Of a DNA stretch of 31,693 nucleotides, positions 4,788 through 7,972 are shown one piece after another. Below the pieces are notes generated by a model. That model was not told the origin of the DNA. It saw only the letters and a list, made by a program, of their open reading frames with translations, and searched no databases. This DNA comes from a virus, in the IMG/VR virus record IMGVR_UViG_3300020470_000119, positions 1-31,693 of that record, one strand, 5' to 3'. Position 1 is the first letter of the stretch. Each line of letters starts with the position of its first letter. Position numbers and translations under genes: made by a program.

Positions 4788-5497
4788 AATGCAATCAAAT
4801 TATCTTCCAATGGATCTTTACCAAATCCATGTTTAAACTGTTTTTCATTATCACAAACTATATCAAAAGCAATAGTAATTCTTTCACTATCTCCTTCATG
4901 CTTATCAGTATCATGAGGAAGCCATGTTGGAAATATGGTCATTTGACCTGGATTATTCTCTATAGGATATGGATTACCAGTATATGTGTGATAATAGTTA
5001 GTAGAAGTATTCTCACATTGAACACAAAAATGACCACTCAAATATGTCCAAGGATGACTTGAATGTGCGTGTTTTTTAATCTTATCACCTTTACGCATTA
5101 CATTCGCCCAACACCTGATTTTCAATAAACCAGATAAACTCTTATACTTCCTTTTTTTCTGTCCTATAGTACCATATAAGTACTCATTATGAAATATGCT
5201 AATATTTTCATAAAGTTGTTTGCATATTGGGTAATCCCATTCCAATAAATTATAAAAACTATATCTAGAAGTTAAACTATCTTTTCCTAATCCAGTTGAT
5301 CCATCACTATAATTAGTATACTCAAAAGACCCATCTGGATACTGTTCAAGTAGTTTTTTCTCTTGTTCTAAAATTACTTTAGCAAGTTCATTTGTATCAA
5401 TATCAGTTTGTTTACAACCAATAATATAATCCCAAGTAGGAGCAAAAGGTGTCTCAGGATCTTGTGATTGAAATGTATGTAATGCTATTTCACTCAT
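4784..5497 (-). CDS. 2OG-Fe(II) oxygenase-like protein, tandem paralog 2 of 3
   Basis: The 237-residue protein has the same plan as its neighbours: FAPTWDYII, IRCWANVMRKGD, H143-A-H145, TYLSGHFCVQCENTSTNYYH, GQMTIFPTWLPH with H195, and SERITIAFD with R206. It is the longest copy, with an extra polar stretch around residues 50-85 (YPDGSFEYTNYSDGSTGLG). It overlaps both neighbours by ATGA (5494-5497 and 4784-4787), so all three copies are probably made from one message. Metal and 2OG residues are intact, so it is unlikely to be a decaying duplicate. Substrate unknown. Confidence 0.8.
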   Translation of the reverse strand: MSEIALHTFQSQDPETPFAPTWDYIIGCKQTDIDTNELAKVILEQEKKLLEQYPDGSFEYTNYSDGSTGLGKDSLTSRYSFYNLLEWDYPICKQLYENISIFHNEYLYGTIGQKKRKYKSLSGLLKIRCWANVMRKGDKIKKHAHSSHPWTYLSGHFCVQCENTSTNYYHTYTGNPYPIENNPGQMTIFPTWLPHDTDKHEGDSERITIAFDIVCDNEKQFKHGFGKDPLEDNLIAL

Positions 5498-6120
5498 AAT
5501 CTTAAATCAATTAACTCATTTGAATGTTCCAAAGATGATAATGGACTATCTTTCAGATATATATCAAACGCAATAATAATCCTCTCAGAATCACCCTCAT
5601 GCTTACTTGTATCATGAGGAAGCCAAGAAGGAAATAAGTGCATATGACCCGATTCATTATCTATAGGGTACATCTCATTGTTATCATATGGGTGAAAATA
5701 GTTTGTTGAGGTGTTTTCACACTTAATACTAAAATTTCCGCTAAGATAAGAATGAGGTGCATTACCATGATGATGCTTAGATAACTTATCACCCTTAGTC
5801 ATCACATTTGCCCAACACCTAATCTTGAGTCCATCTAAGCGAGGACTTCTTGTACCACGAACATATTCATCATGAAATTCTATTATCTCCTTATGTAATT
5901 TCTTACATACTGGATAATCCCATTTTAATACATTAAAAAAATAAGACTTACAATTAGGAGCAGTTGTAATTTCATATTCTGGACTTGCTTTCTCTAAAAT
6001 CAATCTAGAGAGTTCATCCAAATCAACATCAATCTCCTTCTCAGCTATAATATAATCCCAAGAAGGAGCAAAAGGTGATACTGTAAGTGCAGATTTAAAT
6101 TGATGTACCTTAACTACCAT
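5494..6120 (-). CDS. 2OG-Fe(II) oxygenase-like protein, tandem paralog 3 of 3
   Basis: The 208-residue protein is the first-translated member of the tandem triplet. It has FAPSWDYII, IRCWANVMTKGD, H116-H-H118, SYLSGNFSIKCENTSTNYFHPY, GHMHLFPSWLPH with H169, and SERIIIAFD with R180. It starts inside the last codons of thyX (7-base overlap at 6114-6120) and overlaps paralog 2 by ATGA. The invariant CENTSTNYYH-type block between the metal sites is the best marker of this subfamily and may shape the substrate pocket. Function beyond the fold is unknown. Confidence 0.8.
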   Translation of the reverse strand: MVVKVHQFKSALTVSPFAPSWDYIIAEKEIDVDLDELSRLILEKASPEYEITTAPNCKSYFFNVLKWDYPVCKKLHKEIIEFHDEYVRGTRSPRLDGLKIRCWANVMTKGDKLSKHHHGNAPHSYLSGNFSIKCENTSTNYFHPYDNNEMYPIDNESGHMHLFPSWLPHDTSKHEGDSERIIIAFDIYLKDSPLSSLEHSNELIDLRL

Positions 6121-6743
6121 CCTAATGCCTCAGAAACCGTAGGAAGTTGTTCCTTAAAGATTTCTCTACACTGCTCTGCAATTTCCATATGCTCTTTTTG
6201 AGTACCATGAGCAGATCTAAGATCAATATAATGTATCCATGACCTCACACTACCACTCATATAGAGTCTAGTAGGTGTTGCTAGTGGCAATACAAATCTT
6301 GCACACTCCTTAGCAATACCTTGTCGGATAAGTTCATTATACAAATCCTTTGATGATGCAAAATGCCTAGCAATAGTAAGTTCTAGTTCCTTCTGCTTTT
6401 CCTCTGGAATATCATCAATTGAATTTTGACGATTACTCTTATCTTGCCTACGAAGTTCAGGCAATGGAATAGCTCCCAAAAGAGTGGTATCAGCATACCT
6501 TTGGGAGAATTCTTGGAAAGTAAATGATCTATGACGCAATATTTGAGCAGCAAGACCTCTAGTGGTCTCGATCTCTAATGTCATAAATGCCTGTTCAAAT
6601 ATAGACCAATGCTGATGCTTAATACAATAGGCAAGCAATTTAGCATAATTTGGATTATCCTGATTTTTGGGATTTGATACCCTAGCGATATACGCTATTT
6701 GTTCTTCAGGATTCGGTGTTATCTGAATCAGTTTTACAGTCAT
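6114..6743 (-). CDS. thyX: Flavin-dependent thymidylate synthase ThyX
   Basis: The 209-residue protein carries the ThyX signature RHR-X7-S as RHRSFTFQEFS (70-80), followed by QRY. ThyX makes dTMP from dUMP using methylenetetrahydrofolate, FAD and NADPH, and raises the nucleotide supply for phage DNA. The C-terminal region RLYMSGSVRSWIHYIDLR (about 158-175), followed by HGTQKEH, is also typical and includes active-site Arg residues. The ATG at 6743 overlaps the end of the small upstream gene by 38 bases, and the 3' end overlaps the oxygenase triplet. ThyX is common in cyanophages. Confidence 0.96.
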   Translation of the reverse strand: MTVKLIQITPNPEEQIAYIARVSNPKNQDNPNYAKLLAYCIKHQHWSIFEQAFMTLEIETTRGLAAQILRHRSFTFQEFSQRYADTTLLGAIPLPELRRQDKSNRQNSIDDIPEEKQKELELTIARHFASSKDLYNELIRQGIAKECARFVLPLATPTRLYMSGSVRSWIHYIDLRSAHGTQKEHMEIAEQCREIFKEQLPTVSEALGW

Positions 6744-6888: not shown

Positions 6889-7063
6889 AATACGCTTTAA
6901 AATAACCTGCTAGTCCGTTCGTTGTAACCTGCTTACTACACCAATCGTCTGCACATTCGTAAATGGCACGATTTGAGTAGGTACTATTACCGTATTTAGA
7001 CAGCAAGATCTTAAGTACTGCTTGTCGTAGCTTCAGTTTTTCGTCATCAATCGGGGTAGCCAT
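6836..7063 (-). CDS. Conserved cyanophage hypothetical protein
   Basis: The 75-residue protein begins MATPIDDEKLKLRQAVLKIL and continues SKYGNSTYSNRAIYECADDW, a pattern I recall as conserved in cyanophages. The start is ambiguous: four consecutive ATGs (7072, 7069, 7066, 7063) and an upstream ATG (7090) are in frame. I chose 7063 because family members begin M-A-T-P. The repeated GATGATGATG also encodes an Asp run at the end of the overlapping 52-codon gene upstream. It is probably soluble; no domain recognised. Confidence 0.75.
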   Translation of the reverse strand: MATPIDDEKLKLRQAVLKILLSKYGNSTYSNRAIYECADDWCSKQVTTNGLAGYFKAYYATKGNDQVGEKSPETP

Positions 7064-7205
7064 CATCATCATCCCAAACTTCATCAACATCGTTATCTTT
7101 GACAGGTTGAGTATATGCTTCTGTATCAGAATATATCTCAGACTCTAATTCCTCTACAATCTCCTTAAGAGCCATAGTCAATACTTTTAACTTTGCTCTA
7201 TTCAT
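7047..7205 (-). CDS. Small acidic hypothetical protein (52 aa)
   Basis: A short frame starts MNRAKLKVLTMALKEIVEEL, continues SEIYSDTEAYTQPVKDNDVD and ends EVWDDDDGYPD. Its ATG overlaps the TAG of the upstream 78-codon gene in an ATGAATAG arrangement, and its end overlaps the start of the MATPID gene by 17 bases, so it fills the only gap between two conserved genes in an otherwise overlapping operon. That context and the amphipathic helix followed by an acidic tail support translation. No family recognised. Confidence 0.6.
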   Translation of the reverse strand: MNRAKLKVLTMALKEIVEELESEIYSDTEAYTQPVKDNDVDEVWDDDDGYPD

Positions 7206-7452: not shown

Positions 7453-7481
7453 ATTATACTACAAAAAAAGAGGGGTGTCCA
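7453..7481 (-). promoter_or_regulatory. Sigma70 promoter embedded in a terminator
   Basis: Minus-strand TGGACA (7481-7476) is followed by a 17-base spacer and TATAAT (7458-7453). The -35 box lies in the loop and stem of the upstream terminator hairpin, and the spacer contains its seven-T tract. Transcription would start near 7446, giving a short leader with AAGGAG before the ATG at 7434. One mismatch from consensus makes this a strong early promoter candidate for the small-gene/thyX/2OG operon. Confidence 0.7.
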
Positions 7482-7487
7482 CCCCTC
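7463..7487 (-). terminator. Rho-independent terminator
   Basis: The inverted repeat GAGGGGTG/CACCCCTC (arms at 7487-7480 and 7477-7470 on the minus strand) is followed by seven Ts (7469-7463), ten bases after the TAA of the 47-codon gene. It ends the riboswitch-controlled transcript and overlaps the promoter of the next operon. Confidence 0.85.
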
Positions 7488-7496
7488 CTTTAAATT

Positions 7497-7640
7497 TTAA
7501 CTACAAGGTTTTGCCTTGCTTTTGCACTTTATGCCTCGATACATGAGATCAAGGTTTCGTTGTTGTGCTGCTTGTGCAAGGATTTCCTTGCGATAAGCAT
7601 CAGTGTCGTATTCGACACCACGGTAAGTGACCTTTGCCAT
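7497..7640 (-). CDS. DUF4278-like small protein (47 aa)
   Basis: The frame reads MAKVTYRGVEYDTDAYRKEI, then LAQAAQQRNLDLMYRGIK and CKSKAKPCS. The TYRGVEYD start and the second YRG unit resemble DUF4278, a short family in cyanobacteria and their phages with no known function. AAGG lies eight bases before the ATG and is part of a small TACC-TAA-GGTA stem (7657-7647), which could mask it. A glutamine-aptamer-like core ends about 30 bases upstream, and a terminator follows directly, so this is the last gene of the leader transcript. Too short for the usual ORF cutoff, but well supported by context. Confidence 0.75.
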   Translation of the reverse strand: MAKVTYRGVEYDTDAYRKEILAQAAQQRNLDLMYRGIKCKSKAKPCS

Positions 7641-7667
7641 TTTGGTTACCTTAGGTAGGGTGGATTA

Positions 7668-7870
7668 GACCCGTTCCTTCAGTCGGCTTTTGCGTCCCAG
7701 TGACATTCCAAACCCTCTACATCTCTATAATAGTTCTTATAGATCTCAACTATATCTGCCCTCGTAGAGGGAGATAAGTCTTTCTTTCCATTAACTCTTT
7801 CTATCATTACTGATAGATCAGAGCATGTAAAGGCAGCAGCGATTAGGAATTCCATACTGGAATGAACGAT
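7668..7870 (-). promoter_or_regulatory. Second glutamine-aptamer-like element with a 58-codon ORF in its P2 loop
   Basis: The 3' half at 7701-7668 has the hallmark core GGGACGCAAAAG, then GACTGAAGGAACGG, of glutamine riboswitches (glnA / Downstream-peptide RNAs). No local partner strands exist, but the copy ATCGTTCATTCCAGT at 7870-7856 supplies them: CGUUC (7868-7864) pairs with GAACG (7676-7672) as P1, and UUCCAGU (7862-7856) pairs with ACUGGGA (7701-7695) as a seven-pair P2 with one GU. The ORF starts at the next base (7855) and its stop codon UGA (7681-7679) lies in the conserved CUGAAGG. The split architecture is inferred from complementarity only. Confidence 0.55.
7679..7855 (-). CDS. 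Riboswitch-associated small protein (58 aa)
   Basis: The frame reads MEFLIAAAFTCSDLSVMIER, then VNGKKDLSPSTRADIVEIYK and ends CHWDAKAD. A hydrophobic start with CT, two helices and a Cys near the end (C11, C51) resembles short proteins I recall in marine cyanobacteria and cyanophages. It follows the first aptamer and has no Shine-Dalgarno; TTCCA-GTA-TGGAA around the ATG could form a local hairpin. Its last codons (HWDAKAD and stop) are read from the conserved core of the second aptamer, so this DNA is dual-purpose. It would be a 'downstream peptide' in the sense of the Downstream-peptide RNA motif. Function unknown. Confidence 0.75.
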   Translation of the reverse strand: MEFLIAAAFTCSDLSVMIERVNGKKDLSPSTRADIVEIYKNYYRDVEGLECHWDAKAD

Positions 7871-7871
7871 A

Positions 7872-7917
7872 ACCCGTTCCGAGTCGGCTTACTTGCGTCC
7901 CTTATGGGATGAACGAT
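7872..7917 (-). promoter_or_regulatory. Glutamine riboswitch aptamer (glnA / Downstream-peptide type)
   Basis: Minus-strand ATCGTTCATCCCATAAGGGA, then CGCAAGTAAGCCGACTCGGA and ACGG, folds as a three-way junction: P1 CGUUC (7915-7911) with GAACG (7879-7875), P2 UCCC-AUAA-GGGA (7909-7898), and a short P3 around GCCGACU. The joining GACGCAAGUAAG matches the conserved core of cyanobacterial glutamine riboswitches, also recorded in a marine cyanophage. Compared with the second copy the GAAGG segment before the P1 strand is shorter. It starts about 10 bases after a TATAAT box and precedes the 58-codon ORF, so it probably controls that ORF in response to glutamine. Confidence 0.75.
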
Positions 7918-7923
7918 ATGTGC

Positions 7924-7952
7924 ATTATAACACATTACTATGTATAAGACCA
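7924..7952 (-). promoter_or_regulatory. Promoter of the riboswitch transcript
   Basis: TATAAT (7929-7924) has only a poor -35 (TGGTCT, 7952-7947, 17-base spacer), as expected of an activator-dependent promoter. An alternative -10 of the TAN3T type, TAATGT, lies at 7937-7932. Transcription from TATAAT would begin right at the start of the first aptamer. Confidence 0.6.
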
Positions 7953-7956
7953 GTTT

Positions 7957-7972
7957 TGTAACATTTGTTACA
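7957..7972 (-). promoter_or_regulatory. NtcA-type operator TGTA-N8-TACA
   Basis: The 16-base perfect inverted repeat TGTAACATTTGTTACA contains GTA-N8-TAC, the consensus site of NtcA, the cyanobacterial nitrogen regulator that is activated by 2-oxoglutarate. It lies upstream of a weak-35 promoter. Spacing to the next TAN3T box (7937-7932) is 20 bases and to TATAAT is 28; NtcA-activated promoters usually have about 20-24, so the first is in range. NtcA sites are known in cyanophages; here one precedes a glutamine-aptamer leader. Confidence 0.65.

Follow-up and report, generated by a model that had tools for sequence, protein, structure and literature searches.

How might a phage read the nitrogen status of its host when one leader carries an NtcA-type operator and a glutamine aptamer, two signals that would seem to oppose each other? 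The question is raised by the minus strand of a 31,693-base IMG/VR virus record (this whole stretch is termed the window), whose relatives in similarity searches are marine T4-like cyanophages. The coordinates of the first-pass annotation leave out most of the system, which extends to about position 7466 (Table 1). We are highly confident of its anatomy, namely, tandem aptamers of which the second is split by a nested gene.

Table 1. Features of the nitrogen-responsive cassette proposed here, in window coordinates
Feature	Positions	Strand	Basis
NtcA-type operator TGTAACAAATGTTACA	7957..7972	-	Sequence; conserved in relatives
Inverted repeat around the -10 box, 6 pairs, one T-G	7918..7935	-	Sequence
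Extended -10 TGTTATAAT	7924..7932	-	Sequence; -35 degenerate in window copy
Aptamer 1, compact glutamine aptamer	7871..7917	-	RF01739, 35.8 bits
Aptamer 2, 5' half: P1 strand CGTTC, A, P2 strand TTCCAGT	7856..7868	-	Sequence, comparison; directly behind aptamer 1
Nested ORF, 58 aa, in the P2 loop of aptamer 2	7679..7855	-	phrog_504, E 6.4e-13
Aptamer 2, 3' half: P2 strand ACTGGGA, core, P1 strand GGAACG	7672..7701	-	Core same as in compact copies
Putative expression platform	7641..7671	-	Sequence
Downstream gene, 47 aa, DUF4278	7497..7640	-	PF14105; phrog_5049, E 1.6e-20
Intrinsic terminator	7466..7491	-	Terminator prediction in sequence

A compact and a split glutamine aptamer in one leader

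The glutamine aptamer that had been proposed from the letters alone was recovered with the Rfam covariance models: RF01739 matched at 7917-7871 on the minus strand with 35.8 bits, against a gathering score of 35 (E value of 5.5e-8 in a one-record search), and RF01704 gave 26.7 bits, below its cut-off of 33. This aptamer 1 begins at the predicted transcription start. Rfam snoRNA-like matches at 7030-7074 were far below the gathering score and were discarded.

The window contains just two copies of the motif GGAACGGG, one at 7880-7873 and one at 7677-7670, and the latter is part of a second glutamine aptamer core, GACGCAAAAGCCGACTGAAGGAACG. The two halves of this aptamer 2 are separated by an open reading frame, which starts with an ATG right next to the P2 strand and ends with a TGA (7681-7679) inside the conserved 3' core. 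Across the ORF, UUCCAGU is pairable with ACUGGGA over 7 pairs to give P2, and thermodynamic folding of the window copy yielded probabilities of 0.84 for P1 and 0.55 for P2. As it stands, aptamer 2 has no match to RF01739 up to an E value of 5, because the ORF splits the covariance model; once the ORF is disregarded, P1, P2, and the core are all present. The split copies of four relatives (L001, L002, L004, and L005) were not detected in an Rfam search either.

The 3' P1 strand of aptamer 1 (GAACG) could also pair with the 5' P1 strand of aptamer 2 (CGTTC), at 7880-7863 on the minus strand of the window. These strands are 3 to 6 nt apart in 134 of the 135 tandem loci among the matches listed, and their pairing is a possible link that would open both aptamers together.

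Distribution of nested ORFs among relatives

We surveyed 174 sequences, composed of 157 IMG/VR contigs, 16 loci from phage records, and the window. The contigs are among the matches listed of two exact-pattern scans, so the frequencies of the arrangements given here are not population frequencies. Among these matches, we found 312 cores, 307 of which had a 5' half within 330 nt; 150 of these aptamers were compact and 157 had their halves far apart. A nested ORF was present in 146 of the 157 far-apart aptamers among the matches listed, with its ATG 3 to 15 nt past CGTTCA (mostly 4 or 5) and its stop at or in the 3' core; the other 11, which had no qualifying ORF, were counted as misses. The loop of the nested copies measures about 150 to 210 nt. 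By locus, again among the matches listed, aptamer 1 was compact and aptamer 2 nested in 68 cases, both were nested in 32, both were compact in 25, aptamer 1 was nested and aptamer 2 compact in 10, and the arrangement was partial or mixed in 35.

We also examined 25 phage-record loci found by similarity to the DNA of the window or to its DUF4278 protein; they were selected from the records listed, with omission of most duplicates and of some distinct records (e.g., S-TIM4 and P-RSM3). At least one nested ORF was found in 22 of the 25, the exceptions being P-TIM68, AG-345-P14, and S-PM2. The second aptamer of S-PM2 is a core variant overlooked by the pattern scan (33.3 bits with Rfam), and core variants account for the second aptamers of L007 and L010 that the scan missed. 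An origin of the split form in the hosts was considered and rejected: the pattern matched in 2 of 201 host-family genomes, and the sole one inspected (G001) has the phage cassette on one contig.

Parts of the cassette also occur on contigs filed as Nonlabens, Acidimicrobiia, Dehalococcoidia, and a euryarchaeote (L181, accession number NZ_RMVE01000006.1; L188; L178; L189), which are probably misbinned or contaminating cyanophage DNA; the DUF4278 start of L181 resembles that of P-TIM40. A manA RNA (RF01745, 142 to 188 bits) lies near the cassette in L002, L004, L010, and L016, and in L002 and L004 it is located between the cassette and talC.

The separated halves behave as one RNA structure

The compact second aptamers of L003, L006, and L017 match the Rfam glutamine model above the gathering score (35.4, 37.8, and 38.1 bits, respectively), and that of L007 reaches 33.3 bits, below the gathering score. 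The 3' cores are identical between nested and compact copies. In 94 distinct type-2 nested copies, positions 1 to 5 of P2 were paired in 98% of cells, and sliding the strands gave at most 63%; the corresponding values for 34 type-1 nested copies were 89% and 56%. None of 10,000 partner swaps reached the observed mean P2 helix for either type. With diverged representatives, the count was again 0 of 10,000 for 32 type-2 copies and 248 of 10,000 for 9 type-1 copies. Compensated P2 pairs are seen, for example, as UCCUUA with UAAGGA in P-HM2 and as UCUAUGGAACAA with UUGUUUCAUAGA in L095. Within the same genome and in all four arrangements, a 5' half forms 5.1 to 6.5 pairs with its own 3' half versus 2.2 to 3.5 with that of the other aptamer; hybrid aptamers, in which a 5' half would pair with the 3' half of its neighbor, were rejected on account of these shorter helices.

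Thermodynamic folding of 40 of the 94 distinct type-2 nested copies and of all 34 type-1 copies gave P2 probabilities of 0.76 to 0.78, versus 0.33 to 0.37 with shuffled interiors; the P1 probability of the 40 type-2 copies was not above that of the control (0.59 versus 0.62). The continuous P2 helix of the 94 type-2 copies includes none of the AUG bases in 13 cases, one in 47, two in 8, and all three in 26. The AUG of the window sits just past the P2 helix, and in many relatives it lies within it.

The nested ORFs are conserved genes

We then analyzed the ORFs themselves. Excluding the last 24 bases, 919 of 1,668 differences in type 2 and 959 of 1,592 in type 1 fall at third codon positions, a bias that indicates that the nested ORFs are coding. 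The same ORFs are annotated in GenBank as hypothetical proteins (e.g., PSSM7_205, PHM2_179, and PHM2_180), and 17 phage records match the nested protein of the window, at one place each. Protein alignments covered 66 of the 74 type-2 representatives and all 20 type-1 representatives. Type-2 proteins belong to phrog_504 (65 of 66) and have invariant C11, C51, D54, and A55, the last two being encoded in the aptamer-core region; type-1 proteins belong to phrog_6471 (19 of 20), with C23 and C59 among their invariant residues. The nested families span 49 to 75 aa, and a Pfam search of the nested proteins returned no real family.

The two types end in different frames of the core: GGA CGC AAG TAA in most type-1 ORFs, and GAC GCA followed by GAC TGA or GAC TAA in most type-2 ORFs. 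The codon GAC was present at 201 of 201 ORF ends versus 64 of 279 in ORF bodies, in a sample fetched by patterns that contain those codons. As evidence for constraint at the RNA level, this count is therefore biased, and we did not rely on it.

An operator at a fixed distance from a sigma-70 promoter

The sequence TGTAACATTTGTTACA at 7957-7972 is a perfect TGTA-N8-TACA palindrome, as the first-pass annotation had it. This pattern has 2 matches in the window versus 1.33 expected, and at least 2 were obtained in 41 of 100 shuffles, so that alone it is no proof of anything beyond chance. The 110 bases before the first aptamer were extracted from two-aptamer loci, and 127 distinct leaders were kept. 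Among the matches listed, GTA-N8-TAC is present in 88 of these 127 leaders, against 7.45 on average and 14 at most in 100 shuffles; this count rules out a chance palindrome, although the statistics of the single window allow it, and bears out the earlier proposal of an NtcA-consensus operator before the aptamer. Of 102 GTA-N8-TAC matches in the 127 leaders, among the matches listed, 74 sit 53 to 62 bases before the aptamer; some nearer ones belong to the inverted repeat around the -10, and some phage sites are found ∼20 nt before the aptamer.

The promoter consensus of the family is TTGnnT-17-TAnnnT (sigma-70). Promoter geometry was read in the 58 of 127 leaders with a readable TTGnnT-(16-19)-TAnnnT pair and a site 50 to 66 bases before the aptamer; among the matches listed, the operator centre lies at -49.5 to -51.5 in 54 of these 58 leaders and at exactly -50.5 in 46. 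The window has a diverged form, with the operator centre shifted to -47.5. Its TATAAT at 7929-7924 on the minus strand is preceded by the TG of an extended -10 (7932-7931), and it lacks a good -35, in agreement with the poor -35 noted before. The same annotation had cautioned that TATAAT is unusually far from the palindrome and that a TAATGT box fits better. The long gap stands (27 bases from TACA to TATAAT in the window), and TAATGT does not: the gap from TAC to the -10 is fixed at ∼31 bases in relatives (28 in the window counted in this way), which identifies TATAAT as the conserved box, and TAATGT is not conserved, the nearest leader (L087) having TTATGT. Class II NtcA promoters have about 20 to 24 nt from TAC to TAN3T, and the phage spacing, 28 in the window and ∼31 in relatives, falls outside that class.

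The inverted repeat around the -10 has varied arm sequences, and a stem of at least 6 pairs is present in 117 of 127 leaders, among the matches listed, versus 45.1 in shuffles. It is located upstream of the sigma-70 start, and a 5' hairpin would form on RNA coming from an upstream late promoter. In most leaders, the -35 is overlapped by a TAWATA box that resembles the late promoter NATAAATA of cyanophages and is located mostly 31 to 35 nt before the aptamer; the box occurs in the final 60 nt of 117 of the 127 leaders, among the matches listed, versus 37.5 in shuffles, and its window copy is TATACATA. This placement over the -35 suggests that early and late promoters overlap. Both the late promoter NATAAATA and pairs of early and late promoters have been described in cyanophages (PMC2984593).

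The outer gene and its putative expression platform

Behind aptamer 2, a Shine-Dalgarno-like TAAGG (7653-7649) overlaps a small TACC-TAA-GGTA hairpin in the putative expression platform. Stems that hide the Shine-Dalgarno sequence were found in 59 of 120 leaders, among the matches listed, against a control fraction of 0.28, which gives weak family support to such stems and to an ON or OFF sign read from the platform. The downstream gene scores marginally above the PF14105 cut-off (25.5 versus 25.3 bits). IF17, the glutamine synthetase inactivating factor, has this DUF4278 domain in its N-terminal part, and its mRNA contains a glutamine riboswitch of the ON type (PMC6316151). Downstream of the cassette, the minus strand of the window encodes a ThyX-type thymidylate synthase (6114-6743) and, adjoining it, a putative 2OG-Fe(II) oxygenase (5494-6120), which may have a bearing on nitrogen and nucleotide supply.

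A model in which one aptamer serves two genes

We propose that a marine T4-like cyanophage has in this cassette a self-contained operon that responds to nitrogen, in which one aptamer toggles two genes; we put the probability of this whole mechanism at roughly 0.55. A host NtcA-type protein would act, more likely by activation than by repression, at the operator, which is centred ∼47 to 51 bases before the sigma-70 start. The RNA would begin with the two tandem aptamers, glutamine being their presumed ligand, and a 58-codon gene fills the P2 loop of aptamer 2, with its AUG abutting P2 and its stop in the core. At low glutamine, the halves would stay apart and the AUG would be free, so that ribosomes would translate the nested gene and traverse the 3' half. 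In the presence of glutamine, P1 and P2 would close, hiding the nested AUG and freeing the ribosome site of the DUF4278 gene. That the folded aptamer would open this outer gene is argued by analogy with the type 1 and type 2 glutamine riboswitches of the hosts, which are ON switches (PMC6316151). Aptamer 2 would then be an OFF switch for the inner gene and an ON switch for the outer one. If NtcA activates, transcription would peak when nitrogen is short and the riboswitch would pick the nested or the outer protein. The two nitrogen signals need not conflict, since the cassette can yield the nested protein at low nitrogen and the DUF4278 protein at high glutamine. We would place at just under even odds the more specific claim of a natural reciprocal riboswitch, in which the ligand shuts the inner start and opens the outer gene, in a modular design where either, both, or neither of the tandem aptamers bears a gene. 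A point against the model is that the 5' half is made ∼170 nt before its partner and may be translated before folding. Others are the many type-2 nested copies in which the P2 helix takes in only some of the AUG bases, the position of the window's AUG just past that helix, the type-2 P1 probability that does not exceed its control, the weak signal from the expression platform, the 248 of 10,000 swaps for diverged type-1 copies, and the poor -35 and shifted operator of the window.

Could the nested ORF merely be co-transcribed between aptamer remnants, the split aptamer being unable to bind glutamine and aptamer 1 regulating alone? The blindness of Rfam to the split copies in the window and in L001, L002, L004, and L005 and a loop of about 150 to 210 nt would fit remnants, yet the split P2 covaries across the ORF and fits its own partner better than hybrids do, the cores are identical with those of compact copies, and the 32 both-nested loci among the matches listed would be left with no compact aptamer at all. 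We consider this explanation unlikely. It also seems improbable to us that the nested ORF is a timer resembling a leader peptide, in which ribosomes in the 3' half hold the aptamer open, DUF4278 is read when translation slows, and ligand control of the nested start is minor. The conserved nested families with their invariant cysteines argue that the product itself matters, and compact versions devoid of an ORF exist, although a stop inside the core does mean that terminating ribosomes cover that core.

The identity and the sign of the regulator are less settled than the position of its site. Another protein might bind TGTA-N8-TACA, or NtcA might repress; we hold these options to be possible but the less probable course. 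A centre near -50 differs from the class II NtcA position, and some phage sites lie ∼20 nt before the aptamer, both of which would suit them. The host gifA and gifB sites, at -30.5 and -7.5, do repress (PMC6316151). On the other hand, the site is located upstream of the -35, as is common for activators, and its distance is fixed. Its sequence also agrees with GTA-N8-TAC, the marine NtcA consensus given in PMC3037559, where NtcA sites were predicted in all 16 cyanophages considered. On these sequence grounds, we favor an NtcA-type host protein as the regulator.

If the model is right, a riboswitch aptamer is able to accommodate an entire protein gene in a loop and to steer two genes in opposite directions. 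The model offers a testable answer to how phages read the nitrogen status of the host, with NtcA (2-oxoglutarate) and glutamine both acting on one transcript, and suggests roles for common, uncharacterized small phage proteins (phrog_504, phrog_6471, and DUF4278).

Comparison with known systems

The pairing of operator and riboswitch, of which the first-pass annotation knew no case in a phage leader, is already described for host gifB and PMM1846, whose promoters contain NtcA sites (PMC6316151). The host gifB leader (glutamine riboswitch type 1, RF01739, glnA RNA) has the same aptamer core and a DUF4278 gene downstream; in contrast to it, the phage leaders are tandem, have the operator usually upstream of the -35, and often carry a whole gene in the P2 loop. 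Tandem glnA RNAs and their cyanobacterial targets have been reported (PMC2864571), and a survey of tandem glutamine riboswitches (157 doublets and 4 triplets) likewise found two glutamine aptamers in a row; as described there, it took tandems only without intervening ORFs, so ORF-bearing pairs were outside it (PMC9481103). Glutamine riboswitches have been named in cyanophage genomes (PMC9964418, PMC9602691), as has a phage tmRNA with a glutamine riboswitch (PMC9004378). In the open-access literature on riboswitch-nested genes, cyanophage glnA RNA, and phage DUF4278, we found no report of nested genes; the Rfam covariance model does not find split copies, which would explain why they have been overlooked so far.

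Short ORFs that overlap a regulatory RNA are known from leaders of the mgtL/mgtA type, whereas the phage ORFs are conserved families of 49 to 75 aa confined to one peripheral loop, with the start at or in a helix and the stop in the core. Group I and group II introns also have a protein gene filling a loop of a structured RNA; the phage system differs from them in that there is no splicing and that the structured RNA is instead an aptamer for a metabolite, located in the leader of an mRNA.
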